From: an archaeon
GTDB lineage: Archaea; Micrarchaeota; Micrarchaeia; Anstonellales; Anstonellaceae
NCBI GenBank assembly: GCA_020056635.1
Contig: JAGVHI010000022.1
Coordinates: 1-53,847 of the forward strand
Length of the DNA: 53,847 bases
Direction: 5' to 3'
Each line of letters starts with the position of its first letter. The first letter of the stretch is position 1. The notes under the pieces are model-generated. The model did no database searches and was not told the DNA's origin. It saw nothing but the letters and a program-made list of their open reading frames with translations. Position numbers and translations under genes: made by a program. Below, piece after piece: positions 9,269 to 50,689 of this stretch.

Positions 9269-11533
9269 TTACGGCCCGCCCTGCGAAACGTAGTACGGGT
9301 TGTTGATTTCCCGCCCTGCGCAGTCATAGCTGTCGCAGCCGCGCAATGCATCATAGTAGCCCAATACAGATTGCGCGTAGCTTCCGTCCTTGCACTCGAT
9401 TATGTACTCGATGAAATTGTCGTACTGGCTGCCGTCCGCAGGGCAGATGTGCCCGTTTGAATCAAACTCGCTAAACCAGGTGAGGTACTGGTCCCCGTGG
9501 TACGCAAGAAGCCCGAGGAATATTGCAACATATGCATCTTGGTCATCATCGCCAGATAGGCCAAGCTCGGAATAGTGAGTTGATACGAACTCTTCAGCAT
9601 CGTGTATGTACTCGCTTAATTTCACAGAGCCGCAGCAGGCTGAGTCGCCAGGCGAGAGCGGGCTGTACTGGGTTCCGCCGCACAATTTTATCGCATCAGG
9701 CAGGCTGCCTGGGGGATACGAGCTCCCGTTTTTCTCAATGCATTGGAGCAGCCCGTATGCGCACGGCTTGCAGTCTGCGCCAGTGCCAGTTGGCGAGCAT
9801 TCCCCTGTGCCGTCAATTTTCCACGGAGTGGTGTCGATTGGCTGGCCAGTTGAGGGGCAGGTCGGGCTTGGGCCGAATATCTGCTCAAGTGTCTGAGGCG
9901 GGTCATTGCACCCCGAGTTCCCCATCCTAGTCCAGCTGATTGCGCACGGGTCAAGCGCGCTTTCCTGCAATGCCACTGCGCGAAGCAGGAACGGGTCGGT
10001 GTCGGCAATCTCAGCGTTCAAGTCGATTTGCGGGAACCGGGTGCAGTTCTCCTCAGGGATGCTTGCGTGCGAGGTGACCCAATCCCCGGGCGGCTCCTCA
10101 TCGTAGCTTATGCAGGACGGGCAGCGGAAAGAGATGTTGTAGTAGCCAGTCATTTCGGATGGAAGCTCGTATTCCTCCCCGTACTCAAACACCCGCCGAG
10201 TGGTTGCCCAGCCCTGCGCAAACGAGCAGAATGCAGAGGTGCCGTTTGTTGAATAGACAATTGGGATAACGTTCCCTGCATTGAAAATGTCTGCGCAGGT
10301 TGAGAACCATGCAGCTGCCTGCGGCTGCTTGAACTTGAAATCCGAGTCCGCAAGCCCGAAATTGCAGTCGCCGGCGTTGCATGGGAGGATGTCCCTTGCG
10401 TCCGCAAGCTGGTAGGGCGCAACCCCGATAATTCCGGAATCCACCATTGCCTGCTGGTTTGTGTGCAGCTGCAGGTAGCCGCGCGCAATATCGCTGTTTG
10501 TCCAATTGCACCCTGCAAGCGCGGTCGGGCCGGGGGACATGCCAACATACATCCAGAGCACAGGCTTCCCGTAGTTCCTAAGTATGGTTTCTTTTGCATA
10601 TGAGAGGCGCTTTCCAATCAGCACGTCTATGTCGCAGCTGTCCGCATCCTCGTTTAGTATGAAACCCTGCCCGATTGCATCTATCAGCGTGGATGGATTT
10701 TGCCCGCGGGATGAGATTTCTTCATAAACTGCCGCAATGTCCGAGTCGTTCATGTCGCGCGCTGCAAGCACTGTAAGGCAGTTTGGGCATTCGTCCTTGG
10801 ATGCGTTGAGCTGGGAAACCACTGCATCCACTACGGCTGGATTGCTCCCGTTGAAGTTCGCCTCAGTGGTGATGAATACTGGCCCGACGCCCTTAAGCGC
10901 GTGCGCAATTTCCCTGGATGCCGTTTCGTTTATGTTCGAGCCGTTGGTGTAGTATATGTATAGGGGCATCACATCCTTGTGCAGCAGGCAGCCTGCCTGC
11001 TTCTCGCTTGGGGCGTAGGGCGCATGAAGCTCGTTTCCCAGCATCCAGCGCACCGCCATCTTGAGCTGGGACGAGCAGAGCGCGTTTGCGCCCCCTGTGA
11101 AATTGGCGCCTGAATCGTTTGTGAGCGTTGCCCCGGAGTATTCAAAGAACGTCTGCCCCTGGCCCACCATGAAAAAGCGCGAGATGTTCGTGCCGTTCCA
11201 CCCGTTGAAATTTGAGTAGTTGCACTTGTAGAAGCCGCATTTGCCCTTCGCAAGCGAGCGGTCAAGCCAGCTGTCCGGGATGAGCCACCGGTCCATCCAC
11301 CTTGGCATCGGGATGCCAAGCACGCTTGAGCGGTTATCGCAGTACATGCACGTGCATGGGTTGATTTGGTCTGCCGGGAGGCATGGGTTCTGCGAGAGCG
11401 TGTCAAGCAGGTTCTCGGTCATGTTTGACTTTATATAGCTGACTCCAGGGAATTGGGTGCGGAAAGTGCAGCCTGAAAGAAATAGTAATGATAGTAGGGC
11501 TAGCGCGCCTAAAAGGACCCCCCTCGTTCGCAT
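9269..11533 (-). CDS. Secreted lipoprotein with TIM-barrel-like region and lytic-transglycosylase-like (SLT) domain
   Basis: The 754-residue protein begins with a lipoprotein signal peptide (LLFLSGC lipobox, residues about 16-22) and many Asn-x-Ser/Thr sites, so it is extracytoplasmic and probably glycosylated. Residues about 170-430 contain VGPVFITTEANF, KPVLWMYVGMSPG and GIIGVAPYQLADARD, suggestive of a glycosidase-like TIM barrel. From about residue 520, PFLLRAVALQESALDPCAIS followed by CAYGLLQC resembles the catalytic-Glu and GLxQ blocks of SLT/lysozyme-like transglycosylases, with a 60-residue Cys-rich insertion between them. Such domains (VirB1) accompany type IV secretion systems. This fits the neighbouring membrane genes but is odd for an archaeon without murein. 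The start is about 27 nt from a TATA element. It is the last of three minus-strand genes. Confidence 0.8.
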   Translation of the reverse strand: MRTRGVLLGALALLSLLFLSGCTFRTQFPGVSYIKSNMTENLLDTLSQNPCLPADQINPCTCMYCDNRSSVLGIPMPRWMDRWLIPDSWLDRSLAKGKCGFYKCNYSNFNGWNGTNISRFFMVGQGQTFFEYSGATLTNDSGANFTGGANALCSSQLKMAVRWMLGNELHAPYAPSEKQAGCLLHKDVMPLYIYYTNGSNINETASREIAHALKGVGPVFITTEANFNGSNPAVVDAVVSQLNASKDECPNCLTVLAARDMNDSDIAAVYEEISSRGQNPSTLIDAIGQGFILNEDADSCDIDVLIGKRLSYAKETILRNYGKPVLWMYVGMSPGPTALAGCNWTNSDIARGYLQLHTNQQAMVDSGIIGVAPYQLADARDILPCNAGDCNFGLADSDFKFKQPQAAAWFSTCADIFNAGNVIPIVYSTNGTSAFCSFAQGWATTRRVFEYGEEYELPSEMTGYYNISFRCPSCISYDEEPPGDWVTSHASIPEENCTRFPQIDLNAEIADTDPFLLRAVALQESALDPCAISWTRMGNSGCNDPPQTLEQIFGPSPTCPSTGQPIDTTPWKIDGTGECSPTGTGADCKPCAYGLLQCIEKNGSSYPPGSLPDAIKLCGGTQYSPLSPGDSACCGSVKLSEYIHDAEEFVSTHYSELGLSGDDDQDAYVAIFLGLLAYHGDQYLTWFSEFDSNGHICPADGSQYDNFIEYIIECKDGSYAQSVLGYYDALRGCDSYDCAGREINNPYYVSQGGP

Positions 11534-11814: not shown

Positions 11815-14800
11815 CTAGGGTGTTGTTCCTGGCGGCGTATGGGTGCTAGGGCCAGAATACCTGGCAGTCCTGCCAAGCGCAGAGCAGTAGTGCAGCATGT
11901 TGCGCGAGGTGCTGGCTCCGCAGAGCGCACAGGTGTAGGAGTTGAGCCAGGGCTTGCGCTCGTGTGAAGAGACCGAGTGTTCGATCGCATCTGCTTGTGC
12001 CGAGGTAAGAAGCAGCTTGTGAAGGTGAGTCTTGACAAACAATTGCTTCCCCCCTTCGTATAGCCCGCCCTTGAGGCCGCGCTGGTAAATGTAATCGTAG
12101 TTGAAAGCCCACATTCCAAATAGGGGTGACATGGGCCAGCCGAACGCGAGGTTCGAGGGCATGGTTGGGGAGAGGAGTGCTTTTACCACTGCCTTTCCAG
12201 TCTTTGGCACCCAAGTGTCCGGTTCCCACCCCATCATCTTGTCATCCAGTTTGTCCAACCCCAATCCAGCCGGAGCCGACATCTTTGTCCAGTGGTATTG
12301 CTTTGTGCCGAATGCCCTTATTTCTGACCAGCGTATGTGCGAGAGGAACTCGCCAGGCAGGTTGCGCCGCAGTATGTCGCCCCTTGCCATCTCGTCAAAT
12401 GTGTCCCAGCGCGGGTTGCTGCTCATCACAGGGGCGCCCCTGCGGGAGAGGTAGGATGCAAGCGCCGGCTCAAGCGTGCCTCCTGCGAATATTTCCGGCC
12501 TGAAAAGGTCCTGGCGGGAAACTGGCAGCCAGTAGAACATGCCAGGGGGCTGCACCGAGAATGCGGTTTTCCACATGCCCATATACAGGTAGGGCTTCCT
12601 GGTGCGGACACCGTGCGCGCCCTGAATCACGCCGGCGCGCTGGGTTGCGCTGTAGAGGGAGCTCCAGGAGTACCATCTGTCAAACTGGTCCATGGAAGTG
12701 CCGCCATAGAGCTCCTTGTCAAGCTCGTGGCGCATCTGCTTGTAACCCTGCATCGAGCGGGGCAGCCTCAAGTTCCTAAAGTGCATTGCTGCTTCGGGCT
12801 CAAATGCTTTTTCAGAAATCCTCCTTGCGTAATTAAGCTTCTCCCTATGCAGGAAGAAATCGTCTATTTCGCTCATGCCGCCCCCGATTCCGTGGGGGTA
12901 GTCATACAGGAAAGTGAATGGGGTGAGCAGCCTGCCGCCCATGTTCGGGTCCATGAGCAGCCTAAACCTGCCAAACTCGTCGCGCACCCAGTATTTGAAA
13001 TAATCCTTGACATTGTGGATATGAGGGAGCCTGAGCCTCTGGTAGTTGTCGAACCCCTTGAAAGGCGAGAGCAGCGAGCGCAGTCCTTCCCAATACCTGG
13101 GCTTGGAGAGCCTGCCCCCCGCCTCCAGGTCAGAATCCGCAGTGACCGGGTATTGTGAGAAGAAAGAGAGCGCTGTGCGCACGTGTGTGATGAACCCCAT
13201 CTGAATCCAGTAGGAGGGCTTCACCCCCCAGACGTTTGCCCAGTCAGAAGACATCAGCCTGGAGCCAAACGGTATGTTTGGGGGCTCGTAAACCAATTGG
13301 GTGGATTGATAGCCCACTTGGGTGGAAGGCGAAACGAAACCTGAGTGGCTGCGCCTCCAGTCCCTCATGGCTGACATGTCGTTCCAGTAGTAGAACACAT
13401 CGTATAGTGCCTGCATGTCGTATGCTGCCGCATCAACCTTTGCTGAGCGGGTGCTGCGGTACAGCTTGTTCATCTCCCTTTCCTGCTGCGTAAGAAGCGG
13501 CATGTACTCGCGCATGGAATTGCGCCTTGAAATCGCGTCTGCTGCGTCGTTTATCAGCTTGTCTACATCCCCTATTTTCAATGAGCTTAGTTTCTGCCTG
13601 CTTGGAGGCATCTTCTCCAGAAGTTCGTTATAAGCAGAAAGCGTTTTGTTCAGCCGGTCCGCGTCTGCAAGAAGCACACTGCGCCTGACTGCGCTCAGTG
13701 CTGGAAGCGAAAGCTCGCCATTTACCCTTGAGAGTTCGCTTTCTGCATCCTTAATCTTGCCAGCCAGATGCTCCTTTCCACCCAGGAATGCAAGCTTGCG
13801 TGCGGAGGTTGAAACCTCATTCACTACGTCGGTCCATTTCCCCATCTTGCCCTGCACCATGCGCAGGTCCTGGAGCTCCTGCGAAACTATTGCGTTCTCA
13901 TTGTCCATGAGGAATGCGCGGTTGCGGAACTCCCATAGGGCCTGCCTTGCAAGCGCCTGCGAGGAGTACCAGTTCTGGAGCCTCTCCATTGAGGGGGCAG
14001 AGCCGCGGGTCACGAGGCGCTCAAGGTAGCCGTGGAACACCTTGAATGAGTTCGGGTAGGCGTAGCGCGCCTCCCTGGGGAGCGGGATTCCCTCGCGGTC
14101 CCGCATCTTCGCCTCGATGTCAGCAACATAGCCTGCAGGGCCGAATTGGTAGGTCTTTGGCTTGCCGCGAAGCGGGAATGCCCGCCGCTGCCCGTCGGCA
14201 ACCGCGTCCTCGTCTATGAGGCGCAGGCGCAGGTTGTCGCGCGCCACGCGCATCATCTGGTCGCGCACAGGCCCGACTGCAATTTCCGCCTCCTGGAACA
14301 TTGCCTGGTAGGTGCGCTTGATTTCCTTGCTGCCGCTCTCATACGGGTTGCCTGGAAGCCAGCCGTGCTTTGCAAATTCAGCCATGTTGGCGTCCTTGTA
14401 CCTGCCGATTATCTCCCCGCGCTCGTTTCGCAGCTCGCCGTTTTGCATCTTGATTGCCCCGCTTTCGATGCCCTTGTTGATTTCGAAGAGCGAGACTTTC
14501 TTTTTCACATCGTAGAATTCGATCATGCGGGATTTGGTTTCGTTGCCCTCCGCGTCGCGCTCCACCGCCCGCCTGTATTTCGGGTTCATGTATTCCTTCA
14601 CTTCGTTCATGCACCAGTCCGCAGGGCTGTAATATACGTTGAGCGTCTTGAACACCGCAAGCTCGCCGTTGCGCTTCTTGCGCACTGTGTATTCTATCCG
14701 CTCGCCAGTGCCCTCCTTCCTCGCAACCACCTTTATCTCATCGCCTGCCTTGCCGTTCCTGTGCAGCTCTGCAATCCCGTCCCGCGCGCCCTTTGTGAGC

Positions 14801-17800
14801 TTTGCCTTGTCCGCATGCTCAAGCTCGCGCGCAATCGTGCCAAGCTCGCTTGAGCTCACCTTGTGTATGAAACGCGCGTACGGGACCATGGTGTCGTTGC
14901 CTGTCCCGAACCAGACCGATTCGAACAAATCGTTGTACCTAAAGCCGCGCTTCATGAGCTCGGAGTACCACTTGGGGTTGCTCTCGACCTTTATTTCGTT
15001 CCCGAATATCCCCTTTTGCGCGTACATCTTGAGCGTTTCGAATATGCCTGAGTTGTAATCGTAAGCCTCATGGAAATCGCGGTGCATGTTCTGCCTGTAT
15101 CCGTCCACTATCCTTGAAATCAGGTATGCCTCGTGGAGCCGCACGTTGTATTCGAACGAGAGCCCGTCCAGCTGCTTGCGCATGCCAGACCGTTTTCCAA
15201 GCTCGAATTTCTGGTCCTGGTACTTGAGTAGTTTATAGTCATCAAGGACCTCGGTTGGGAGCATCCTTGATTCTGCAGTCGAGGATTTGATGTTCCGGAA
15301 CACCCATTCCTCGGTGCCTGCAAAAGTCAGCGCGTCGCGCAGCTGCCCTTTTTGCATTCTTTCGAGTATGTCGCGGTAGTTGGTATGCGCATAATCGTGA
15401 ATGCCGGACACTTCTGCAAGCATCTCGATTGTCTTCACCTGCCCGCTTACCGCTTCGAAGAATTTGCCGGCCCTAAGCTGGAGCAGGGCTGCGGAAGTCG
15501 TGCCTGCCTCCAGCATCTCGATTTCCTTTTGAACTTTTCCGTGCTCGTCATTTTTTATCATCCGCTGGATATTGCGTATAGTGTCATTGGATGAGTGGAT
15601 TTGCCCCTTCCAACCCTTTTCGTAAATTGCGATTGCCCCTTTGCCGACCAGCTTGTTTAGGTCCTCTATGATTCCGTTGCGAAGCAGGAAGCTGCGCTTG
15701 AGCGCGGCATCGTTCGGGGATGCGCGCAATGCAAGCGAATCATTGGTTGCATCCGCCTGGAGCCTTGCTATAAGCGCCCTGTAGCCCTTAACGTCTGAAG
15801 GCAGCGGGCCCGTTGCCCCTATGCCCAAAAGCCTTTGCGAGAGCGCAACCCCCTTGCTGCGGTGTTCTGGCGAGTCCAGTTTTTCAGCTATTTGGCCGAG
15901 CAGGAAAGTGTCAAGAGCCGCCCCTCCTTTCAGCAGGGACTTGATTTCTGCAATGCGCGCTTCGTAATCAGCGATGTTGCGAAGCAGGCTGCCTTCCTCA
16001 AGGCTTGCGAGCCTGATGTTTTTGAGGTATGAGAGGTAATCCTCATAGCCCTTTACCACCTTGCCAACTCGGTCCCGCTCAAGCAGCGGGTGGGTGCCCT
16101 CCTGGTTCACGAGCTTTAGGAACCGCACCATTTCCTCTTCCGCAAGGTACTGGGCTGCGCGCACGTTCACCTCGTCAAGCAGGCTCTTTTTGAGGTCCTT
16201 GCCGTTCCAGTAGACCTCGCGCTTGCCCCACATGTCCTTTGCCTTTTCCAATATCTCCTCGCTTGTTTCATTGCCCGAAAGGAGCTTGTAGGGCTTGTTG
16301 CCCTTGGCGTCCTTGATCCCTGCAGGGTCGTCTGCATGCGCTACAAGCGTATCATAGAGCGCGCCAACCAGCATGTCCTGGCCCATGTAGCGGTATGCCT
16401 TGCTCCAGTGCTCACCTGTTGTGCCCCCATTGGTCAGCACCCATTCCCTGTACGCCTTTGCCCCGTTTTCAGCCTTGTTTTTGAACCACTCCGTTTCTTG
16501 GAGAATGGTTTCCATTGTCATGTACGAATGCACCAGCCTGCCATTCGAATCGAATTCCCTGGCAAAAGGCCTGAGGACTTTTTTCATCTCCTCGTTCCCT
16601 GCAACTGTCCCGTACTTGTATTCTTCCCGGTCATTGAAAACTATTGAGAGCGCATAGCGGTGGTTTAGGATGTCCCTCAAATCATTCATGAGGTGCCTGT
16701 GGTTCGCGTCTTTCTTGAAATCTGCAGCAGCAAACGTTCCGCCGCTTGCGGTCTTGAGCCCCGCAGCTTCGGCAGCCCGAAGAAGCTCGTTTAGGTGCCC
16801 CTCGTATTGCGCGTATGTCTTTTCCTTCCCAGTTGTGGTGTCCTTTGCCTGCATGAAACGGGATACTGCAAGCAATACATGAGCCTCATTTAGCAGCTCA
16901 GTATCCGGCGTATTTTGTATTGGTGTGAGCTTCTTGACAATGTCATCCACCATTGCCCTGGCCTGTGCGTCGTACGTCTTTGCTATTTTTTGTATTTCAC
17001 GGTCGATTGCCTCCTTCTCGGATGCTGATTTCCCCTTCTTCGATGCCTCTTTTCTATCTATCTTGCTTTGCATTTCTGCAAGGCTTGCATCGATCTGATT
17101 GGTCAGGTCATCAAGATTCCCAATGAGATGCTCTTTGCCTTTGATTTTCTCCCAGTACTTATCCGTAAGTATCGCCTTCACAATCTCGATTCTCGCCCGC
17201 TCGGTCATTTTTTCAGAGAGGTCAAGCCCCTGCTTTGCCCAGGCATCCAGCGGGTCGTGGAAATGCGCCAGCATTATGTTCTCCGCCTTGGCAGCAGGGT
17301 CGAAGAAGAATTTTGACATGGCGCGAGGGCCGATGAACACAAGCGGCGCCATCAGGATTGATTTTATGCCTTTCCCGTTGTGCCAGTATGCCTCGTGCCT
17401 TGAAACCTTCACATTATTGCCAAGGTTGTCCTTTTGCGCAACATAGCGCTCGTAGAGCTTTGTTGATTTCTCCACCAGCCCGAAAGGCTTGCCAATCTTT
17501 TCACTGACCGCATCCGCCCCTGAAATCAGTTCCGCGAACATCGCTTTGCGCGTGTCGCGGCGCAAGGAACGCGCGCCGCCTGAAACAGACAGGAATGAAC
17601 CCCACAAATCCAGTGCAGTACCTACCATTGGGACCCTGCTTAAGTAGAACTCGCGGCCCATTATGTTCCAGTGCTTGTCGTACGCCCATTCCTGCAAACC
17701 ACGGACTTTCCCTGCAAACCAGCTGCTGGGCGCCCCGCCGCCCCTTGCGAGCCTGATTGCATTAGATTCATTCTGCCCGATTGCCAGCTGCTCGTGCAGG

Positions 17801-18840
17801 TTGATCATGTAGTTTATCCGCCGGCGCATCGATTCGATTGCGCCTTGGGCAAACCCCCAGGAGGAAAGCTTGGAGTCTATCTCCTTGCGCTTTTGGTCTG
17901 CTGTTTTTTTGCTCTCGAGAATTTTCCTGATTTCATCTTTCTTGAGCTTGTCGTTTAGCTCAGCCCAGTCTGCCCACTGGTATTCGATTGATTTTGTTGC
18001 GCGCCGCACGTATTCCCTTGCGGAGCGCGTGGATTTCATCAGGTGGAATGGAGTCACGATCCTTGTGACGGCGCGAAGCTTCCTGCCCTGCGGTACGCGC
18101 GGGGTGGTGATGTCAAATAGTGAGAGCGGGTTCTTGCCCATATAATACATGGAGCTGATGAGCAGCCCTGCGACTATGAGCACAGGCAGGCAGACCAGCC
18201 GGTTTGCCGCCTGGTTGAACACCTCCTGTATCGCCTGCCCGAATCCGCTTGTGCCGTACGCGTGCTGGGGGCATGCGGTAATCAGGGCTGTTGCAGGCTT
18301 GATTGATTTGTTCCCATAATAGATTAGCTCAATCTGGAGGCAGCGGGTGTAGTTCGGGAATGGAATGAGAGTTCCGCTTTGCAGCTTGAGGTATTGGAGC
18401 CTGCAGACAGCAGTCCCGTTTATGTTCGTGACCACTGGCTGGCAAATCGTGCTTCCTGAGGGGTTGGTGAGGTTTTGCACCTGCGGGTCCTGGGGGTAGA
18501 AGTAGATTTGCGCGAACGAGAGGTTCTGTGTGTAGATTGAAAGGTCGATGTCGGTCTTGATTGTATTTGCGCCGCCCTGGTTCGGGTCCCTGCCAGCGCT
18601 CACCTCGCCAAGCACGCGTTCCGATTCGCCCGGGATGGATTTTGACTTGAAGGTTGAGTTTATGTAGGTGGCAATTATGATTATGGAGTTGTTGCTCACG
18701 TATGCATCAAGCGTTGCGCGCCCGCAGAAATCGCACGGGGGCTCCTCTGAGCCGCGGGGGGGAGGGGCTTGCGCAAACAAAAAGGGCAGCAATAGGGCAA
18801 GGGTGAAAATGCAGACTAATTGCAAGCTCGGATTGCGCAT
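11815..18840 (-). CDS. Giant membrane-anchored protein (2341 residues), function unknown
   Basis: Residues 1-23 form a signal peptide. An outer domain (about 24-210) follows with a CDFC pair at 36-39, several more cysteines and Asn-x-Ser/Thr sites, then a single transmembrane segment near 213-234 (CLPVLIVAGLLISSMYYMG). The remaining roughly 2100 residues start with basic sequence (PQGRKLRAVTRIV) and should be cytoplasmic. They are rich in Lys/Glu/Arg helices, with long coiled-coil-like stretches and a few moderately hydrophobic segments (IKSILMAPLVFIGPRAM). Near the C-terminus CALCG, followed 10 residues later by another Cys, may bind a metal. I see no Walker A motif. It is divergently transcribed from the six-gene membrane array, about 95 nt apart, and its ATG is 26.5 nt from a TATA element. 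A structural or coupling component of the same machine is my inference. Confidence 0.85.
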   Translation of the reverse strand: MRNPSLQLVCIFTLALLLPFLFAQAPPPRGSEEPPCDFCGRATLDAYVSNNSIIIIATYINSTFKSKSIPGESERVLGEVSAGRDPNQGGANTIKTDIDLSIYTQNLSFAQIYFYPQDPQVQNLTNPSGSTICQPVVTNINGTAVCRLQYLKLQSGTLIPFPNYTRCLQIELIYYGNKSIKPATALITACPQHAYGTSGFGQAIQEVFNQAANRLVCLPVLIVAGLLISSMYYMGKNPLSLFDITTPRVPQGRKLRAVTRIVTPFHLMKSTRSAREYVRRATKSIEYQWADWAELNDKLKKDEIRKILESKKTADQKRKEIDSKLSSWGFAQGAIESMRRRINYMINLHEQLAIGQNESNAIRLARGGGAPSSWFAGKVRGLQEWAYDKHWNIMGREFYLSRVPMVGTALDLWGSFLSVSGGARSLRRDTRKAMFAELISGADAVSEKIGKPFGLVEKSTKLYERYVAQKDNLGNNVKVSRHEAYWHNGKGIKSILMAPLVFIGPRAMSKFFFDPAAKAENIMLAHFHDPLDAWAKQGLDLSEKMTERARIEIVKAILTDKYWEKIKGKEHLIGNLDDLTNQIDASLAEMQSKIDRKEASKKGKSASEKEAIDREIQKIAKTYDAQARAMVDDIVKKLTPIQNTPDTELLNEAHVLLAVSRFMQAKDTTTGKEKTYAQYEGHLNELLRAAEAAGLKTASGGTFAAADFKKDANHRHLMNDLRDILNHRYALSIVFNDREEYKYGTVAGNEEMKKVLRPFAREFDSNGRLVHSYMTMETILQETEWFKNKAENGAKAYREWVLTNGGTTGEHWSKAYRYMGQDMLVGALYDTLVAHADDPAGIKDAKGNKPYKLLSGNETSEEILEKAKDMWGKREVYWNGKDLKKSLLDEVNVRAAQYLAEEEMVRFLKLVNQEGTHPLLERDRVGKVVKGYEDYLSYLKNIRLASLEEGSLLRNIADYEARIAEIKSLLKGGAALDTFLLGQIAEKLDSPEHRSKGVALSQRLLGIGATGPLPSDVKGYRALIARLQADATNDSLALRASPNDAALKRSFLLRNGIIEDLNKLVGKGAIAIYEKGWKGQIHSSNDTIRNIQRMIKNDEHGKVQKEIEMLEAGTTSAALLQLRAGKFFEAVSGQVKTIEMLAEVSGIHDYAHTNYRDILERMQKGQLRDALTFAGTEEWVFRNIKSSTAESRMLPTEVLDDYKLLKYQDQKFELGKRSGMRKQLDGLSFEYNVRLHEAYLISRIVDGYRQNMHRDFHEAYDYNSGIFETLKMYAQKGIFGNEIKVESNPKWYSELMKRGFRYNDLFESVWFGTGNDTMVPYARFIHKVSSSELGTIARELEHADKAKLTKGARDGIAELHRNGKAGDEIKVVARKEGTGERIEYTVRKKRNGELAVFKTLNVYYSPADWCMNEVKEYMNPKYRRAVERDAEGNETKSRMIEFYDVKKKVSLFEINKGIESGAIKMQNGELRNERGEIIGRYKDANMAEFAKHGWLPGNPYESGSKEIKRTYQAMFQEAEIAVGPVRDQMMRVARDNLRLRLIDEDAVADGQRRAFPLRGKPKTYQFGPAGYVADIEAKMRDREGIPLPREARYAYPNSFKVFHGYLERLVTRGSAPSMERLQNWYSSQALARQALWEFRNRAFLMDNENAIVSQELQDLRMVQGKMGKWTDVVNEVSTSARKLAFLGGKEHLAGKIKDAESELSRVNGELSLPALSAVRRSVLLADADRLNKTLSAYNELLEKMPPSRQKLSSLKIGDVDKLINDAADAISRRNSMREYMPLLTQQEREMNKLYRSTRSAKVDAAAYDMQALYDVFYYWNDMSAMRDWRRSHSGFVSPSTQVGYQSTQLVYEPPNIPFGSRLMSSDWANVWGVKPSYWIQMGFITHVRTALSFFSQYPVTADSDLEAGGRLSKPRYWEGLRSLLSPFKGFDNYQRLRLPHIHNVKDYFKYWVRDEFGRFRLLMDPNMGGRLLTPFTFLYDYPHGIGGGMSEIDDFFLHREKLNYARRISEKAFEPEAAMHFRNLRLPRSMQGYKQMRHELDKELYGGTSMDQFDRWYSWSSLYSATQRAGVIQGAHGVRTRKPYLYMGMWKTAFSVQPPGMFYWLPVSRQDLFRPEIFAGGTLEPALASYLSRRGAPVMSSNPRWDTFDEMARGDILRRNLPGEFLSHIRWSEIRAFGTKQYHWTKMSAPAGLGLDKLDDKMMGWEPDTWVPKTGKAVVKALLSPTMPSNLAFGWPMSPLFGMWAFNYDYIYQRGLKGGLYEGGKQLFVKTHLHKLLLTSAQADAIEHSVSSHERKPWLNSYTCALCGASTSRNMLHYCSALGRTARYSGPSTHTPPGTTP

Positions 18841-18935: not shown

Positions 18936-20276
18936 ATGGGTAGGCGTGGCGTGCTGCCGGCGGTTATTTTGTTCCTTGCGCTAGTTTCTGCAATCGGCGC
19001 AACGCCAGCATGCAACCTTGCAGGGGACATAGTTTACAAAACCGCGACAAGCGACATGATAAAGCTCGCGGTGCTGCTCACAATCGGGATAATCGCGCTT
19101 GCGAAAATGTATGCTGAGGCGGTGAATTCCGTCCCGCTGCAGGCGTGGGTGAAAGCCGAGCTCTGGGAGGTGGTGGTGACAGTCTTCCTTGTGGCGAGCA
19201 TCCCTATTTTTGCGGGAATTTTGGACCATGTCACGTGCAATTTTCTCGGGGACACCCCGAATCCCGCGCTTCCGGTCGATCCTGCCAATACGAATATGCT
19301 GTACCATTGCGGCTGGGCTACAGACCCTGGTGGGGGGAGCCGGACTATTTTCACTGTTTCAAAATTCTTCCTTGGGTGCAGCGCTGGGGAGGGGGTGCTG
19401 CTCAAGAAACTGAGCAAGGTCTATGTTGACCTGATGGCGTTTGAGTTCACCATGGCAGGGCTTGCAAGCTGGCAGTTCAACATCCCGCTTCCGGCATACA
19501 CAGTGGTGGTTTCCTCAATTATGATAATGCCGTATTCCGGAACCAATCCGGTAGCGGACGCGCACGTTTTCATAGTGGATGCGGTCGGGCTTGCGCTTGC
19601 GTCGATTGCCGCGCAGAACATGCTTTTGGGGTTCGTAGAAAGCGTGGTGATTGCCGCGTTCCTGCCACTTGGAGTGCTGTTCCGCGCAATCCCAATTACA
19701 AGGAAAGTGGGCAGCACCATAATTGCAGTGGTGTTTGTCGCTTATTTCGTATATCCGAGCACTGTGGTGCTCTCCTACCATGCTTACAACCACATCAAGG
19801 CGATTGATTTCCTTGAGTACAAGAACAAGATCGAGTTCTGCAAGGAGCAGGACCCGGTGAAAATCAATGAGAGCATAAATAAAACGTTAGCACAGCTTGA
19901 GCAGCAGCAAAGCGAGTTTTTCGGCCCGACCGCCCCTACCCGGGGAGGGTTTTCGAAGTTCCTACATTTCCTTGGCGCGGGTACGGAGTGGGTGTTCACA
20001 TGGGCGTATAGGACATATACGACATTTGGGGATCCGTTCGGGGTCTTCAGGCTCGTTACAGGGCACGAGAACACCGATTTCATGCTCACCCCTGCGGACA
20101 CCACGCTCTACCTGTTCGAATCCGTGATTGACGAGACCACGGTGGCTGGGCAGCTGCTTGCGTTCATGACACTCTCGCTTGTGATGAGCATAATAATCAC
20201 AATCACATTATTCCGGGACATTTCAACTGTGATGGGCGGGGAAGGGAGGATAATCGGGATTTCAAAGCTGGTGTAG
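18936..20276 (+). CDS. Polytopic membrane protein, VirB6/TrbL/CedA-like, array member 1
   Basis: The 446-residue protein has a signal peptide (6-22), a span at 41-60, the motif KMYAEAVNSVPLQAWVKAEL (57-76), a span at 76-95, a Cys-containing outer loop, and further spans between 190 and 278. The block FLPLGVLFRAIPITRKVG occupies 242-259 and is followed by a long hydrophobic segment ending FVYPS. A loop of about 110 residues and a final span near 395-425 follow, and the tail is MGGEGRIIGISKLV. The same two motifs recur in the next five genes, so these are paralogues. Multi-span topology of this kind is seen in VirB6/TrbL channel proteins and archaeal CedA. Assignment rests on topology and context rather than a diagnostic motif. 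It is the first gene of the operon and apparently leaderless. Confidence 0.75.
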   Translation: MGRRGVLPAVILFLALVSAIGATPACNLAGDIVYKTATSDMIKLAVLLTIGIIALAKMYAEAVNSVPLQAWVKAELWEVVVTVFLVASIPIFAGILDHVTCNFLGDTPNPALPVDPANTNMLYHCGWATDPGGGSRTIFTVSKFFLGCSAGEGVLLKKLSKVYVDLMAFEFTMAGLASWQFNIPLPAYTVVVSSIMIMPYSGTNPVADAHVFIVDAVGLALASIAAQNMLLGFVESVVIAAFLPLGVLFRAIPITRKVGSTIIAVVFVAYFVYPSTVVLSYHAYNHIKAIDFLEYKNKIEFCKEQDPVKINESINKTLAQLEQQQSEFFGPTAPTRGGFSKFLHFLGAGTEWVFTWAYRTYTTFGDPFGVFRLVTGHENTDFMLTPADTTLYLFESVIDETTVAGQLLAFMTLSLVMSIIITITLFRDISTVMGGEGRIIGISKLV

Positions 20277-20306
20277 TAGATGGGTGCCGATAAACTGGTG
20301 TGATTG

Positions 20307-21311
20307 ATGGTTTGCGGAATCGAGCAGGACATTGTCGAGCTGTTTGCCATTGTAGTTACCATAATGGCTGTCGCGGTTGCGCTCATTTACATGGCCGCGC
20401 AGGCGCTGCGCAAAAGCCAGATGGTGCAGACGCCGACAGGGCAGCTTATTGGAAGGCCGGAATTGGAAATCCTCGTGTCAATTGAGCTCTACCAGGTGTT
20501 TGTGTCGGTAATCATTTGGGTGGTGGTGCTTGCATCCGCGCAGACCATGTGCTCGGTCAGTGAGGGGATTGCGGGGGGAGACCCGTTCGAAATATCCGTG
20601 GGCTACCTAAATGGGCTCACCTATTCGCACGCGCTGCCCACTGTGCAGAGGCTGTGGAACGCGCAGGTTTTCTGGCAGTACGTGGGCGCGATACGAGGGA
20701 AAATCGGGCCTGGAGCATGGGGCGTGATATTCCACGTGTTCCCGTTTGCCGAGTTCCTTGAGAGCAGCATTGATTTTTTGATAACGCTGATCACTCCTTT
20801 CATCTCAAGCCTGCTTGTCCAGGTGGTCGGGCTCCAGCTCATCCAGGCGGTTGCGCTGCGGTTCGTGCTGCCCGCAGGCATATTGCTGCGCGTGATACCT
20901 TTCACACGGGACGCAGGCTCGTTCCTCATAGCATCCGCGCTTGCATTCTATATTGTTTTCCCTATGACATATGTGATGCACTCAATGGTGATGAAGGATA
21001 TTGTTGAGCACAATGTGAATGCGATTGGGGGCGGGATTGACCCTGGGATGGATGAGGAGGTATGGAGCGACAACCAGGATTATGTGGACAAGTACATTGA
21101 TGGCGGGTTCGGCGGTTTGGGAGGCGCGGGATTGCCGATTGCGGCGGGCAGTGGGGTGCTCTCCTCAGCATGGCACCTGCTGTTTGGCGGAAGCTTTGAT
21201 TTCCTTGCGTACATAATGCTGCAGGCTGTGTTCCTGCCTGCGCTTTCGATGACCATAACTGTCACGTTTGTAAAAGCAACAGTGAGCTTCATAGGGCAGA
21301 AGCTCACATGA
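20307..21311 (+). CDS. Polytopic membrane protein, VirB6/TrbL/CedA-like, array member 2
   Basis: The 334-residue protein starts at ATG 20307, with GGTG 6 nt upstream. It has no cleavable signal; the N-terminal span (8-30) leads into IYMAAQALRK. The linker before the ELYQV segment is about 15 residues longer than in the other members and contains GQLIGRPELE. The core signature LPAGILLRVIPFTRDAG lies near 189-205, followed by a span ending YIVFPMTYV. A Gly-rich loop (GGFGGLGGAGLPIAAGSG) precedes the final span, and the tail is TFVKATVSFIGQKLT. It lies 30 nt after member 1 and 15 nt before member 3. It lacks the acidic C-terminal motif of members 4 and 5. Confidence 0.75.
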   Translation: MVCGIEQDIVELFAIVVTIMAVAVALIYMAAQALRKSQMVQTPTGQLIGRPELEILVSIELYQVFVSVIIWVVVLASAQTMCSVSEGIAGGDPFEISVGYLNGLTYSHALPTVQRLWNAQVFWQYVGAIRGKIGPGAWGVIFHVFPFAEFLESSIDFLITLITPFISSLLVQVVGLQLIQAVALRFVLPAGILLRVIPFTRDAGSFLIASALAFYIVFPMTYVMHSMVMKDIVEHNVNAIGGGIDPGMDEEVWSDNQDYVDKYIDGGFGGLGGAGLPIAAGSGVLSSAWHLLFGGSFDFLAYIMLQAVFLPALSMTITVTFVKATVSFIGQKLT

Positions 21312-21326
21312 GAGGATGATGGGAAA

Positions 21327-22685
21327 ATGGGGTTGAACCTGCCGAAAATGGCAATTGCGCTTGTTTTGCTAGCAGCGCTTGCATTGCCCGCGCTTGCGCA
21401 GCCCATTGATGTGGGGAGGAACGTCAATGACCTTTGGAACATTGGCGCCTTCCCGAGCTGGAAGGAAATATGGATTGTGATGGTTGTCTTCTCGGTTGCA
21501 GTGATTTCGATAACATATATGGTCTCGCAAGCGACTGGGAATGACCCGCTTAAGGCCTGGGCAAGAAACGAGCTTGTGCAGGTCTTCTTTTCCGTGCTTG
21601 CGGTGATGGCTGCGCTTGGGGGAATTGCGGTTGGGACACAGGCGCTCACGCAACTGGCCCAAATCGACCCGCAGGCAAGCACCATCTGCCCGCTTTACCA
21701 GACGGTCTGGCCCTGCCACGTGGCGCTTGGGATAAACTACCTTGATATCATGTTCATGACAGGAGTGGACAATGCAAAGCACCTAATCACATTCAACTCG
21801 TACCTCATGCCTGTTGCAACAATGAGCTTTAATTTCGGGCAGATGGCAGGCCTGCGCGCAATGAAAATGACGACCCCGTTCTCAGGGCTCACCATGCTTG
21901 GGGAGAACATAGCGACCGTGTTTGATTTGCTTGTGAAAACGCTCATGGCAATACGGTTCCAGCAGTTCATCCTAGATTTCACTGTGCAGTACCTCTTTCC
22001 CGTAACGCTTGTGATGGGGCTCATGCTGCGCACGCTTTTTTTCACAAGAAAGCTTGGGGGGCTGCTGATTGCGATTGCGCTCTCGCTTTACTTTGTGTTC
22101 CCGACAATGTACGCGATAAATGGGTGGGTGCTCTACCTATGGTCCGGCGGGTTTGACTTAAGGAGTGAGAATGCGCTTTTCACAGTGAATTTCAATGACA
22201 CTGGAGTGTCGCACCCAGGCTTTGAAAACCCGGTTTCCGGCTCTGTTGATGGGGGGTCGCAGATTGAAGGGCTTGGTGGGGTGCAGCTTTATTTCAACGC
22301 ATCGTATGCCAGGGGGAACCGCGGGCAGAATATCACATTAGGCCCTATGCCTGCGCAGCTGGACCTGTGCAATGATACGCCCAGGGCAGGCGACATGAAC
22401 ATTGCGCACCGGTTTGCATACAAGCTCCAGGACAAGATGATATCGAGCCCGACAAGCGCTGTGAAAATCGCATGGTACTTGGCAAACCTCGGCACTTACA
22501 ATGTGGCGTGGGGTTTTGATTTCTTCCTGGGCCCAGACGGGTATCTCGGAAACCTTGCAAAGCTGTTCCTGTTCTCGCTTGTGGTCCCGTTCATAGGCGT
22601 GATGACCACGCTTGCATCAATCAAGGCGCTCTCACCCATGCTGGGGGGGGATACGGAAATTGCAGGGCTTACGCACCTGATATGA
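21327..22685 (+). CDS. Polytopic membrane protein, VirB6/TrbL/CedA-like, array member 3
   Basis: The 452-residue protein is the longest of the array. It has a cleavable-looking signal (10-27, ending ALAQP), a span with ISITYMVSQATGNDPLKAWA and the ARNELVQVFFS segment. A Cys-containing loop (STICPLYQTVWPCHVALG) follows. The core signature GLMLRTLFFTRKLGG lies near 230-244, with a span ending YFVFPTMYA. The outer loop of about 130 residues after it carries Asn-x-Ser/Thr sites and probably faces outward. The C-terminus LGGDTEIAGLTHLI resembles the tails of members 1, 4 and 5. The start at ATG 21327 follows an AGAGGATGAT ribosome binding site. Confidence 0.75.
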   Translation: MGLNLPKMAIALVLLAALALPALAQPIDVGRNVNDLWNIGAFPSWKEIWIVMVVFSVAVISITYMVSQATGNDPLKAWARNELVQVFFSVLAVMAALGGIAVGTQALTQLAQIDPQASTICPLYQTVWPCHVALGINYLDIMFMTGVDNAKHLITFNSYLMPVATMSFNFGQMAGLRAMKMTTPFSGLTMLGENIATVFDLLVKTLMAIRFQQFILDFTVQYLFPVTLVMGLMLRTLFFTRKLGGLLIAIALSLYFVFPTMYAINGWVLYLWSGGFDLRSENALFTVNFNDTGVSHPGFENPVSGSVDGGSQIEGLGGVQLYFNASYARGNRGQNITLGPMPAQLDLCNDTPRAGDMNIAHRFAYKLQDKMISSPTSAVKIAWYLANLGTYNVAWGFDFFLGPDGYLGNLAKLFLFSLVVPFIGVMTTLASIKALSPMLGGDTEIAGLTHLI

Positions 22686-22698
22686 GGATGGTTTGGGG

Positions 22699-23907
22699 AT
22701 GGAAAAGAGGAAAAACTGCAGCAGCCTGATGCTCCCGCTTGCGCTAGCATTGCTCCTGGTTCCGAATGCGCATGCGCTCATAGGCGAAATTACCGGCGAC
22801 TGGGGGTTTGCAAATGTCAAGAATATTGATGATGCGTGCCCTGAGAGGCAGTTCTTCCCAGGGGGGTGGATATCGCTCGCATATGTGGCACTCGTGCTCT
22901 CCGCGGTGTTCCTGGGGTTCATTTACATGGCAACCAGCGCGATGCACACGCCCAGGCTTGCTGCATGGTGCAAGCGCGCGCTTTACGATTGGGTCGTAAG
23001 CGCAGTGGTGGTTTCGGTTTTCGTGGCATCGTACGTCGGGCTGGACACTGCCGGGATGGGCCAGCTTGAGATGGCATACCGCTCCACACAGATAATCAGG
23101 AACACAATAACACAGGATTTCCTCTGGGTGACCGCGGTTGATGTGGTGGTGAACCTGTACGGCAACTTGAACGTGAGCTTCGGGCTCCTGTTCACAGGGA
23201 TAAACTTTTCGACCAAGACCATTTTCAAGCCCATATCCGATGCGCTTGGAATAATGATAAACGCGCTTGCGGCTGCGCTTTTGCAGTGGAACCTGAACAT
23301 GTTCCTGCTCTGCTTTGCAAGGACCAATATGATGGCTGTGCTGGTGCCGATTGCGATTTTCCTGCGCGCGTTTGACTTTGGCAGGGGGGCAGGCAACGTG
23401 TTGCTTGCGATCTGCGCCTCGCTCCTGTTTGTCTACCCGTTCCTGCTCACCATGAACGGGGTGATGCTCTCCAAGTATTTTGGGGGGATTACAAATGATG
23501 CCGATTTGGATGTCACCATAGACCGCGCTGACGAGGATTTGAATTACAGCCTGTTCATGGACGGAACATTCCCTGACCTGTGCAGGACAAGCAAGTGTTT
23601 CTTTAGGGGCAACCTAAGGTCCATTATCGAAGGGGTGACCACTGGCGGCTACCAGGGTTTCTCTTGGGGAGGCAAAATAGGCGCTGTCGCATTGGGGGTG
23701 CTTTTCCTAGGGCTGCAGGCAGGCGCGTTCCCGTACGTTGCGACCAATGCAATATATTCCATAATGATGAAGGTGGCGCAGGATGTTTTTGTGACAAGCT
23801 TCCTGCTCCCGCTGTTCAACATATTCATAACGCTCACGTTCGCAAAGGAGTTTGCAAAGTATTTGGGGAGCGAAGTAGACCTCTCGGCGATTGAAAAGCT
23901 GTTCTGA
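22699..23907 (+). CDS. Polytopic membrane protein, VirB6/TrbL/CedA-like, array member 4
   Basis: The product of 402 residues starts at ATG 22699; the in-frame TTG at 22693 is less likely. It has a signal peptide ending at NAHA, a span with FIYMATSAMHTPRLAAWCK and the KRALYDWVVS segment. The core signature VPIAIFLRAFDFGRGAG lies near 216-232, with a variant Gly-Arg-Gly in place of Thr-Arg. The next span ends FVYPFLLTMNG. A loop with DLCRTSKCFF has two cysteines that could form a disulfide. The tail FAKYLGSEVDLSAIEKLF nearly matches that of member 5, indicating that these two are each other's closest relatives at the C-terminus. It begins 13 nt after member 3. Confidence 0.75.
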   Translation: MEKRKNCSSLMLPLALALLLVPNAHALIGEITGDWGFANVKNIDDACPERQFFPGGWISLAYVALVLSAVFLGFIYMATSAMHTPRLAAWCKRALYDWVVSAVVVSVFVASYVGLDTAGMGQLEMAYRSTQIIRNTITQDFLWVTAVDVVVNLYGNLNVSFGLLFTGINFSTKTIFKPISDALGIMINALAAALLQWNLNMFLLCFARTNMMAVLVPIAIFLRAFDFGRGAGNVLLAICASLLFVYPFLLTMNGVMLSKYFGGITNDADLDVTIDRADEDLNYSLFMDGTFPDLCRTSKCFFRGNLRSIIEGVTTGGYQGFSWGGKIGAVALGVLFLGLQAGAFPYVATNAIYSIMMKVAQDVFVTSFLLPLFNIFITLTFAKEFAKYLGSEVDLSAIEKLF

Positions 23908-23919
23908 AGGGTGGCAACC

Positions 23920-24939
23920 ATGAGCTTCACTGAAATCTGCAATTCCGCATCCGGCGGGTTCCTAGGGAACAACATTTTCGGGGCTGAGTGGGTGCAGCTT
24001 GTTTTCCTTGCGCTTGGGGCGTCGACTTTGATAATGGCGGTGCTGTTCATGGTCTCATCCTTCCTGCGCAACATCCAGTACGAGGCGTGGGTGAAGTACG
24101 AGATATACCAGATACTTGCGATAGCCGTGTTCATGATTTTCATCGCCTGGATTGTCGGGCAGATGTGCTCGTTTGACATAAGCTTCCTTGGGGAGCGCTA
24201 CAGCGTGGCAAACGACAACCATACTCCTTACAAGGCTGCAGAGAATTATTTGCGGGACATGAAAATAGCGGGCAAGGAGCTTTACTGGATACTGATGGTC
24301 GCATATTCGGTTGTTGCAAGGCTGGCCGAGCCCGTATGGAACAGCATCCCGCTCGGGGTGGGAGTCACCCTACAGCCTTTTGCCGGGCTTGCTGCGATAA
24401 AATCAGTCATAATGCTGCTCTCAAAAGGATGGATGATTTCGTACATAGTGCTGCTCACTGAAATGGCGATACTCGAGTACTCGCGCAGGGCGATGTTCGG
24501 CTTCCTGCTGCCCATAGGCGCGGTGCTCATGGCATTCTCGCCCACAAGGCAGTTCGGGGGGGCGATGGTCGCAATCGCGCTCGGGCTGTTTTTCGTGCTG
24601 CCCCTTTGCCTCACGTTCAACGATTTGATGCTCTATGATTTGGTGAACCAGCCGATAAACGAGACGCTCACCGGCATAAAGGCCGCGGACCCGGATTTTG
24701 ACAGCGACAAGCTGCTGAACAACCTTTATGGCGAGATTGGGGATTCCTCCAAGCGCGACATGAACATACTCAATTCGGCAAAGTGGTTCCTAAACCCGCT
24801 CACCCTGATAAGCAGGTATTCGATTGCAGTGGTGGTTTTCACGGCGATAAATTTCACGGTCACGGTCCAGGTGATACGGGAATTTTCCGCGCTGCTCGGG
24901 TCAGAGGTTGATGTGAGCAACCTCACAAGGTTCATATGA
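23920..24939 (+). CDS. Polytopic membrane protein, VirB6/TrbL/CedA-like, array member 5
   Basis: The 339-residue protein starts at ATG 23920, preceded by GGGTGG with a 5-nt spacer; the in-frame GTG at 23911 is an alternative. It lacks a cleavable signal. The first span carries VLFMVSSFLRNIQYEAWVK and the KYEIYQILAI segment, and QMCS follows. The core signature FLLPIGAVLMAFSPTRQFGG is near 195-214, with Met replacing the usual Arg before the small residue. A span ending FFVLPLCLTFND comes next. The tail SALLGSEVDVSNLTRFI matches that of member 4. The gene is 12 nt from member 4 and 24 nt from member 6. Confidence 0.75.
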   Translation: MSFTEICNSASGGFLGNNIFGAEWVQLVFLALGASTLIMAVLFMVSSFLRNIQYEAWVKYEIYQILAIAVFMIFIAWIVGQMCSFDISFLGERYSVANDNHTPYKAAENYLRDMKIAGKELYWILMVAYSVVARLAEPVWNSIPLGVGVTLQPFAGLAAIKSVIMLLSKGWMISYIVLLTEMAILEYSRRAMFGFLLPIGAVLMAFSPTRQFGGAMVAIALGLFFVLPLCLTFNDLMLYDLVNQPINETLTGIKAADPDFDSDKLLNNLYGEIGDSSKRDMNILNSAKWFLNPLTLISRYSIAVVVFTAINFTVTVQVIREFSALLGSEVDVSNLTRFI

Positions 24940-24963
24940 TATAGCGCAAGCGATAGGTGTTTG

Positions 24964-26013
24964 ATGATGCCAACCGACATTGACCTGATGATGCAGGTCA
25001 TCACAGGGGACTACAAGAACATACTGTTCCTAGTGGTGATGGCAGGCTTCTTCATCAACACCCTGCTTTACATGTTCGCAAAGGCGTTTTCCTTCCAGTC
25101 CATGAAGCAGTGGTGCAAGAGCGAGTACATGCAGCTTCTAGTCACGCTGCTCCTGCTTGCGCTCCTGGTCGGATTTGTCGAGACTGTTTGGAACAGCGCA
25201 GGTAGGATAACCGCGATGACGCTTGAGAATGCCGCAGGGGTCAATGTGGCCCCGAATGCGCAGCTCTCGCCGTTTGAAATGACCAAGGCCTACCTTGGCA
25301 ACCTCGCCGAGTGCGAAAAGCATTATTACGCATACCTGTACCGCATCAACTTCTGGGTCGAGAAGGCGGCGAATTTCGGGCAGGATGTGACAGGCGCAGA
25401 GCCGCTTGGGATGTGGTATCTCTCAGGCTGGGTTGGGCTGATGCACTACATAAACGGGATGCTGGTGTACGGGCTCATGCTCCAGTACGTGCAGTATTTC
25501 GCGCTTGATTACATATACATCACGATGCTGCAGCTCTGGCTGCCCCTCGGGCTCGTGCTTCGCGCATTCCCATATACCCGTGGCATTGGGGGGTTCATGA
25601 TAGCATTTTCCCTCGGGTTCTTCTTCGTTTTCCCGCTCTCGTACATGATAATCATTTCACTCCCTGGCACGAACTTCTCGTGCGGCGGGGATTTCGTGGC
25701 GCAGGTGAAAGCGGAGAATGACAAGTTTGCGCAAAAGCCCATCTGCCCTGATTACACCATAGGGGACTCGGAAGCCGCGCGGGCCGAGGTGAAAAGGAAT
25801 GTTGAGCGCTCAACTTTCGGGCGCGATTCCAAGTTTTTCGGCTGGCTGCATTTTGTGGACAGGATACGCGACCGCGCGGTGTACATACTGCTCCAGTCAT
25901 TTTTCTACCCGATTATCGCGCTCACAGTGACATTCACGTTCATACGCCAGGCTGGCTCGCTCTTCGGCGCTGATTTGGCGGAAATCGGGAGAGGCTTAAT
26001 CAAGCTTATTTAG
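24964..26013 (+). CDS. Polytopic membrane protein, VirB6/TrbL/CedA-like, array member 6
   Basis: The 349-residue protein starts at ATG 24964 (or 24967) behind an AGGTG site. The first span contains LLYMFAKAFSFQSMKQWCK and the KSEYMQLLVT segment. A long amphipathic loop with ENAAGVNVAPNAQLSPFEM follows. The core signature WLPLGLVLRAFPYTRGIGG lies near 192-210, with a span ending FFVFPLSYM. A loop with FSCGG and KPICPDY provides two cysteines. The C-terminal region has FTFIRQAGSLFGADLAEIG and ends IKLI, in line with the other members. It closes the array; the next gene, DUF1405, starts 17 nt later and may be co-transcribed. Confidence 0.75.
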   Translation: MMPTDIDLMMQVITGDYKNILFLVVMAGFFINTLLYMFAKAFSFQSMKQWCKSEYMQLLVTLLLLALLVGFVETVWNSAGRITAMTLENAAGVNVAPNAQLSPFEMTKAYLGNLAECEKHYYAYLYRINFWVEKAANFGQDVTGAEPLGMWYLSGWVGLMHYINGMLVYGLMLQYVQYFALDYIYITMLQLWLPLGLVLRAFPYTRGIGGFMIAFSLGFFFVFPLSYMIIISLPGTNFSCGGDFVAQVKAENDKFAQKPICPDYTIGDSEAARAEVKRNVERSTFGRDSKFFGWLHFVDRIRDRAVYILLQSFFYPIIALTVTFTFIRQAGSLFGADLAEIGRGLIKLI

Positions 26014-26030: not shown

Positions 26031-26618
26031 ATGAAACTAAACAACCTCGCAAAATCAATCCTCGCGATAAACCTAATAGGAATGCTGTATGGGTTCTATT
26101 ATTACATTCCAAAATTGCAGCAGACTGGCCCCGCGCTTTGGCCCCTTGTGCCAGATTCGCCAGTTTCAATCCTGTTTTTCATTTTAGTTTTTATTGGGGT
26201 TTGGAGAGGGGAATTCGCTTCTTTTTTCGCAAGCGCATGGCTCATAAAATACGGGCTCTGGACAGTGTTTGTGATGCTTTTCCATTCCAAATACTACATG
26301 TCGCCGGAATATTTTGCGGGAAGCTGGCTCCTCTACATAATTCCGCATATTTTCATGGCGGTAGAGGCGGTGCTGATAATGAAACCTAAGATTCAACCGC
26401 TGCATGCAATAGCGGTGCTAGCGATTTTTCTGGTGAATGATTTTTCGGATTATATAATCGGGACCAGGCCGCTCATTCCTGAGGAGAATTTGAATATAGT
26501 GGCGGCATCTGCGGTTTTCCTATCGCTGTTTGCATTCGGGTTCCTTTTCTTTTTCTCAAAAGCTGCGCTTGAAAGCAGATTGGCGGATGATGTGAGAAAA
26601 TCAGCGGGAGTCAGATAG
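26031..26618 (+). CDS. DUF1405 family membrane protein
   Basis: The 195-residue protein has about six hydrophobic segments. The hallmarks of DUF1405 are visible: an early GFYYYIPKL segment, then PLVPDSPVSILFFIL, IKYGLWTV and PHIFMAVEA. The family occurs in Bacillus and in haloarchaea and other archaea, and its function is unknown. It follows the six-gene array by 17 nt. It may be carried along on the same transcript, but the sequence family is unrelated to the array. The next gene has its own TATA-like element (GATAAATAG near 26630). Confidence 0.8.
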   Translation: MKLNNLAKSILAINLIGMLYGFYYYIPKLQQTGPALWPLVPDSPVSILFFILVFIGVWRGEFASFFASAWLIKYGLWTVFVMLFHSKYYMSPEYFAGSWLLYIIPHIFMAVEAVLIMKPKIQPLHAIAVLAIFLVNDFSDYIIGTRPLIPEENLNIVAASAVFLSLFAFGFLFFFSKAALESRLADDVRKSAGVR

Positions 26619-26672
26619 AGGAAAGCGATAAATAGAGGCTGGTGGCAAATATCTGCCAGAGGGGTGCATGTG

Positions 26673-50679: not shown

Positions 50680-50689
50680 TCTAATCACG

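Follow-up and report, generated by a model that had tools for sequence, protein, structure and literature searches.

Why should an archaeon encode six related membrane proteins side by side, and what might they build together? We addressed this question in a 53,847-nucleotide (nt) stretch of DNA from a member of the Anstonellaceae (Micrarchaeota; GCA_020056635.1, contig JAGVHI010000022.1), hereafter the window, which is contig 2 of a source genome (G000) of 1.1 Mb in 27 contigs with an estimated completeness of 79%. Six + strand open reading frames at 18936-26013 encode polytopic membrane proteins, each homologous to all the others. We call this family V6 and its positions within the array p1 to p6. 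The array is probably the inner-membrane platform or channel of a chromosomal type IV secretion system (T4SS) of the Ced/Ted kind, with six paralogues that are not interchangeable.

Six V6 paralogues in constant number and order

The six genes of the array and their placement in the trees described below are as follows.
18936..20276, + strand: V6 paralogue p1, 446 amino acids (aa), ~7 hydrophobic spans; p1 clade in 20/20 arrays
20304..21311, + strand: V6 paralogue p2, 335 aa, TTG start; p2 clade in 20/20 arrays by FastTree, two changes needed by IQ-TREE
21327..22685, + strand: V6 paralogue p3, 452 aa; p3 clade by both FastTree and IQ-TREE; orthologue of C13:17505 on contig 13
22693..23907, + strand: V6 paralogue p4, 404 aa, TTG start; p4 forms a 15-array clade and a separate 5-array type-B clade
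23911..24939, + strand: V6 paralogue p5, 342 aa, GTG start; p5 clade by both FastTree and IQ-TREE
24961..26013, + strand: V6 paralogue p6, 350 aa; p6 clade with a Shimodaira-Hasegawa-like approximate likelihood ratio test (SH-aLRT) value of 98 by IQ-TREE

Because the gaps between them are only 3-27 nt on one strand (27, 15, 7, 3 and 21 nt from p1 to p6), the six genes are operon-like; the starts of members 2, 4 and 6 (TTG) and 5 (GTG) were assigned mechanically. The proteins are 335-452 aa long, and simple hydropathy counting gives them between four and seven hydrophobic segments. All pairs among them match (15/15, E ~1e-17 to 1e-7 in BLASTP without composition correction), and their joint alignment contains invariant columns that include the R..G of a core motif and the P of a following (F/Y)-(I/V)-x-x-P. 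An earlier, sequence-only reading of this DNA had described six consecutive, mutually homologous paralogues in one operon at these coordinates, with a modified AWxK segment and a longer linker in member 2, and on all these points we agree with it. Its wording of the shared motifs was slightly generous: the common core is present in the six, but member 3 reads LVMGLMLRTLFFTR, member 4 LVPIAIFLRAFDFGR and member 5 LPIGAVLMAFSPTR. Across 84 relatives, conservation is almost complete only at R201, R207, G210 and P225 (numbered as in member 6), besides the initiator M.

A profile search of Micrarchaeota for the same array, which that reading had suggested for DPANN genomes, recovered the family in 263/301 genomes of the phylum and again found arrays of six. 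In a six-frame search with a hidden Markov model (HMM) covering many families, every intact array had six members (60 arrays, or 57 after duplicate removal), including those in the complete genomes of Candidatus (Ca.) Micrarchaeum sp. A_DKE and Ca. Fermentimicrarchaeum limneticum. Where arrays seemed to have four or five members, the cause was overlapping gene calls, the end of a locus or a frameshift, and the six-frame search brought the count to six. In-frame stops in some V6 matches (G027:C2:86649-91900, G109:C9:4434-5630) are possibly draft sequencing errors or decaying members. Four families of the window's class (f14, f18, f19 and f21) have either no V6 or a single V6 only, so within this class the six-array must have arisen or been lost.

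Not only the number but also the order is constant. Across the 57 arrays, the best match lay at the same position in 67.8% of 19,117 cases, compared with 16.7% in shuffles (maximum 17.8%), and within each of the four array types that we named A-D the figure was 96-100%. A FastTree of 20 arrays resolved p1, p2, p3, p5 and p6 each as one clade with 20/20 members and p4 as 15+5, with the single-gene V6 proteins in a separate clade of their own. With IQ-TREE and 14 arrays, p1, p3, p5, p6 and the singles were single clades, while p2 needed two changes and p4 three; the total was 7 label changes, with a minimum of 6 and a shuffle mean of 60.5. The alignment and HMM derive from the V6 family itself, and near-copies inflate clustering of this kind, but the effect is far larger. 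Judged from the sequences, each array position is an orthologous, heritable lineage, and this positional orthology across Micrarchaeota bears out the earlier suggestion that the members are distinct subunits rather than recent copies. Since V6 lengths vary widely, it is number and order that are constrained, not size.

Searching the source genome with the six V6 proteins revealed a second six-gene set on contig 13 (C13:15252, 16517, 17505, 22224, 24772 and 25605). Best matches between contigs 2 and 13 are collinear (p1-p1, p2-p2, p3-p3, p5-p5 and p6-p6), indicating that the entire array was duplicated as a unit. Inserts enlarge two members of the C13 array, p3 to 1109 aa and p4 to 854 aa with a CARDB domain.

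The linked ATPase, VirB4 N-domain proteins and pilin candidates

To what kind of machine does the array belong? Directly after the array, one group of families encodes two homologous proteins of 270-280 aa and then a 500-512-aa ATPase, in an operon that also encodes proteins of ~99, 121, 260 and 800 aa. The ATPase adjoins the array in type-C/D loci. It carries DUF87, AAA_10 and TraG P-loop domains, matches HerA and VirB4 (4ag5) in the PDB, and by tblastn matches the plasmid conjugation ATPases TraC/TraG. Its named relatives are nearly all labelled Candidatus Micrarchaeota, and none was found on the viral contigs searched. The source genome encodes the following counterparts, the last two of them in the window.
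C25:6987-8552: VirB4-class ATPase with AAA_10, P-loop_TraG and DUF87 domains; matches to 4ag5 and TraC/TraG
50350..50736, - strand: VirB2-like pilin candidate, 128 aa, of the same family as the V6-adjacent pilins of other genomes; PF18895 at E 0.0012, below the cut-off
50690..51034, - strand: second VirB2-like pilin candidate, 114 aa

The ATPase starts almost at its P-loop, and the VirB4 N-domain is therefore missing from it. An AlphaFold2 model of the 277-aa subunit (predicted local distance difference test (pLDDT) 78.7, predicted template modelling score (pTM) 0.52) consists of two N-terminal spans and an alpha/beta domain. Its top seven PDB fold matches all come from the R388 T4SS, in entries named for or containing VirB4 (probability 0.91-0.99), with moderate E-values of 0.005-0.09. 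Sequence-profile matches of this subunit in the PDB were coiled-coil noise only, and it was the fold search that resolved its identity. We find the fold agreement telling: on the evidence of the model, the 277-aa protein supplies the VirB4 N-domain that the ATPase lacks. Throughout the loci, the VirB4-N-domain proteins are separate proteins of 240-315 aa. One N-domain gene lies in the ATPase operon on C25 of the source genome, which is incomplete, so that more copies are possible. Lineages with two arrays (types A and B) have one VirB4-N-domain/ATPase operon, and type-C and type-D lineages have one array and two N-domain paralogues. A conserved 780-900-aa protein follows the ATPase operon in most loci (e.g. 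L053:9818-12451, L138:13047-15482). Of its two spans, one is close to the N-terminus and the other around residue 540-640; no Pfam family exceeds the cut-off, and the protein is a candidate for an additional subunit of the machine.

Pilin-like proteins of 104-138 aa adjoin V6 in several loci, and the best PDB match of their profile is the VirB2 pilin TrwL (8s6h, E 0.0039). The number of pilin genes varies between genomes, with several in each. The V6 N-terminus itself resembles the pilin (hhalign P 3.3e-5, probability 72); such N-terminal likeness between platform and pilin has been reported for CedA/CedA1 and VirB6/VirB2 (PMC9905601).

The place of V6 in this machine is indicated by a compact locus found in G110, G103 and G090, in which the order is pilin, single V6, VirB4 N-domain, ATPase. 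The same locus occurs without a called pilin in G116, and pilin and V6 are adjacent in G029 and G108. The single V6 aligns with the V6 of six-arrays over nearly its full length (hhalign P 7e-35). This compact order places V6 in the VirB6/CedA slot of a Ted-like system. We infer that the six-array is an expansion of this single slot, a direction taken from the simpler layout, as the trees are unrooted. Taken together, the VirB4-type ATPase, the VirB4-N-domain subunits and the VirB2-like pilin candidates that are linked to V6 make it very likely that the array belongs to a T4SS-like machine.

What the six proteins may build

We propose that an ancestral single protein of the VirB6/CedA slot expanded into six paralogues, which then became non-interchangeable. 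That each position is kept once, in an order that does not change, may reflect joint assembly of the six, for which a single hetero-hexameric ring would be the simplest form. On this V6 platform, VirB2-like pilins would be drawn from the membrane and polymerised, with energy supplied by the VirB4/HerA-type ATPase, which would be held at the membrane by the VirB4-N-domain subunits through their two N-terminal spans. The different parts of this proposal deserve different degrees of trust. We lean slightly towards co-assembly of the six proteins, while a strict hetero-hexamer is a tentative idea. The same caution applies to its fullest form, in which an obligate hetero-hexameric platform, with one gene per position, would have become fixed by the time of the ancestor of most Micrarchaeota, and many lineages would build two rings (type A and type B) served by one shared ATPase. 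Six single-copy platform genes suggest either a mixed six-membered ring that matches a hexameric ATPase or a smaller mixed ring with an accessory member.

Several observations weigh against this proposal. Direct homology of V6 to VirB6 or TrbL in sequence or fold was tested, and none is demonstrated. PF04610 (TrbL/VirB6) is not among the families listed for 84 V6 members, nothing in G000 matches it, and no protein exceeded the cut-off among 196 genomes of the class; the best sub-threshold loci examined encode paired TadB/TadC-like or unrelated proteins with no match to V6. By hhalign, V6 reached P 0.22 against the IncW/IncN VirB6 of the R388 TrwI group, a small alignment of 9 sequences, and P 0.12 against a Brevibacillus (Firmicutes) VirB6 candidate, an alignment of only 2 sequences, and the 12-span protein of pNOB8, taken as an archaeal VirB6 comparator, gave no match. 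The AlphaFold2 model of p6 is confident (pLDDT 84.4, pTM 0.79), and Foldseek returned neither a VirB6 match nor a convincing neighbour for it in the PDB; its top match in a viral fold library was TrbL, a weak one (E 0.085, probability 0.75). TTYH channels and designed helical bundles, which also appeared in the Foldseek results for V6, were discarded at template modelling scores of ~0.2-0.3 on the query. Known VirB6 rings are pentameric rather than hexameric (PMC9259494). Neither a relaxase nor a clear coupling protein was identified, although no search for a relaxase was made; a 683-aa ATPase with a DUF87/TrwB domain on C5 is an unlinked candidate for the latter. Finally, the ATPase operon of the window's lineage lies on the other contig C25, unlinked to the array, where a single ATPase gene and a single N-domain gene would need to supply both six-arrays.

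The sequence-only reading had called the proteins VirB6/TrbL/CedA-like and had proposed comparing them with VirB6 and TrbL. The label is supported as far as membership of a T4SS-like machine goes; the comparison by profile and fold (PF04610, hhalign and Foldseek against the PDB) yielded no VirB6 match and did not demonstrate direct homology, and V6 is probably VirB6-type by its role in the machine. That reading had also seen a candidate machine in the window, where the array and the pilin candidates are indeed present, but the machine is not whole there.

Could V6 instead be an unrelated membrane family, such as a transporter or an envelope scaffold, whose proximity to T4SS genes in certain lineages is incidental? 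V6 has no significant match in Pfam, NCBIfam, PHROGs or the PDB, where a profile search returned nothing, and its lack of linkage to the ATPase in the window's family would fit such a view. However, two independent kinds of locus, one with a single V6 and one with six, set it beside pilin, VirB4 N-domain and ATPase, the V6 N-terminus is pilin-like and no alternative family scores either, all of which makes mere proximity very improbable. It is also conceivable that the six are an interchangeable kit of homo-oligomeric platforms, each with its own pilin, substrate or partner. Loop length and inserted exterior domains do vary from position to position, as in p3 and the CARDB-bearing p4 of C13, there are several pilin genes per genome, and the five divergent VirB6 genes of Rickettsia have been proposed to form multiple uptake channels (PMC2653234). 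But a kit should vary in number, whereas the arrays have six members in 57/57 cases with the order fixed, and the variable pilin genes bear no one-to-one relation to the six V6 proteins, so we consider a kit unlikely. Because Rickettsia carries five, the earlier assumption of one or two VirB6-like subunits per system is not universal, and the possession of multiple VirB6 proteins by one system has a precedent.

The cargo is a further matter. A protein-secretion or host-attachment machine, with the giant protein encoded divergently from the array as an adhesin or a delivered protein, would suit the host dependence of cultivated Micrarchaeota and the large exterior proteins and CARDB proteins that adjoin the arrays, and nanohaloarchaeal giant proteins with VirB4-like ATPase domains have been read as part of a secretion system (PMC10266531). 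Against this, no secreted substrate was identified here, and Ced and Ted, the most similar archaeal systems described so far, transport DNA (PMC9905601, PMC11868833), which leaves secretion or attachment a rather unlikely function. By analogy with Ced and Ted, the platform that we propose would likely pass DNA between Micrarchaeota cells or to and from a host; we favour DNA exchange, with host-directed transfer as the main alternative.

Searches of the open-licence literature, without preprints, that joined DPANN or Micrarchaeota with VirB6, VirB4 or Ced returned no description of the V6 system, although one may exist elsewhere, and the passages found in papers on Mia14 (PMC5498576) and Ca. 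M. harzensis do not mention it. If nearly all Micrarchaeota possess a T4SS-like system, these archaea, most of which depend on hosts and for which co-cultures exist, would have a defined machine for cell-to-cell transfer. A platform whose gene count seems fixed at six also makes it possible to test directly how pilus symmetry is determined by VirB6-type rings, and an asymmetric hetero-hexamer, if true, would depart from the known homopentameric VirB6 architecture.

Neighbouring genes and known systems

Three genes of the window lie immediately beside the array or next to its giant neighbour.
9269..11533, - strand: putative lipoprotein, 754 aa, adjoining the giant protein; a 33% identical homologue lies beside the array of G004
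11815..18840, - strand: giant protein, 2341 aa, with a signal peptide, an exterior part of ~190 aa, one span near 210-230 and a remainder of ~2100 aa; divergent from the array
26031..26618, + strand: DUF1405 membrane protein, 17 nt after p6; PF07187 at E 3.8e-32

Homologues of the giant protein occur beside type-A arrays in eight other loci; the giants beside such arrays in other families have the N-terminal 400 aa in common, and some also a C-terminal block (1812-1994). A second giant of 2128 aa (C13:30732-37118), likewise carrying a signal peptide and a single span, lies beside the C13 array and has a short transmembrane-segment match to that of the window. An SLT domain in the 754-aa lipoprotein was rejected at E 0.14. 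The DUF1405 gene is probably co-transcribed with the array, and its product is related to the NCBIfam lipoprotein N-acetyltransferase LhaT, far below the cut-off (74 vs 255 bits). Farther along the + strand, the intervals 26664-29140 and 31618-34083 encode three secreted proteins related to one another, of which one has six CARDB repeats (Pfam); they lie on either side of a 794-aa protein resembling a family B DNA polymerase. Homologous small proteins at 39118-39642 (+) in the window and at C13:4608-5372 (-) have a GQ(A/G)ATEYL N-terminus like that of archaeal type IV pilins.

How does the V6 machine compare with described systems? With the R388 (Trw) T4SS it shares the VirB4 N-domain fold of the 277-aa protein, a VirB4-type ATPase and a candidate pilin whose profile leads to TrwL. 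R388 differs in having a separate VirB3 and a homopentameric VirB6, the presumed site of pilin assembly, with six-fold order in VirB3 and the inner-membrane complex (PMC9259494); V6 has no profile match to TrwI, and VirB5, VirB7-VirB11, the relaxase and the coupling protein of R388 were not recognised in the V6 machine, the relaxase not having been searched for. The rvh T4SS of Rickettsiales (virB6a-e) offers a parallel to the array itself, being a highly divergent set of orthologous paralogues from a lineage that depends on hosts, and the membrane domain is flanked by large additional regions as in V6. The rvh system has four or five VirB6 proteins with one documented loss, whereas the V6 array has six with no exception found, and rvh proteins carry TrbL/PF04610 domains in a Gram-negative envelope with VirB8-10, unlike the archaeal V6 proteins with no TrbL match.

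The Ced and Ted systems of Sulfolobales and Thermoproteales (CedA/TedA, CedA1/TedC, CedB/TedB, CedD, CedE) are, like the V6 system, chromosomal and archaeal, and combine a polytopic protein in the VirB6 slot with a VirB2-like pilin and a VirB4/HerA ATPase. In both Ced and the V6 system the N-terminus of the platform protein is pilin-like and the VirB4 N-domain is divided between proteins (CedB/CedD in Ced). Unlike Ced and Ted, Micrarchaeota have an ATPase without any N-domain, which is a separate protein, and their loci add the conserved proteins of ~99, 121, 260 and 800 aa. The single-V6 loci hold essentially the Ted gene set. Ced and Ted have one platform protein, or two with CedE, a paralogue of CedA (PMC11868833), whereas the Micrarchaeota array has six.

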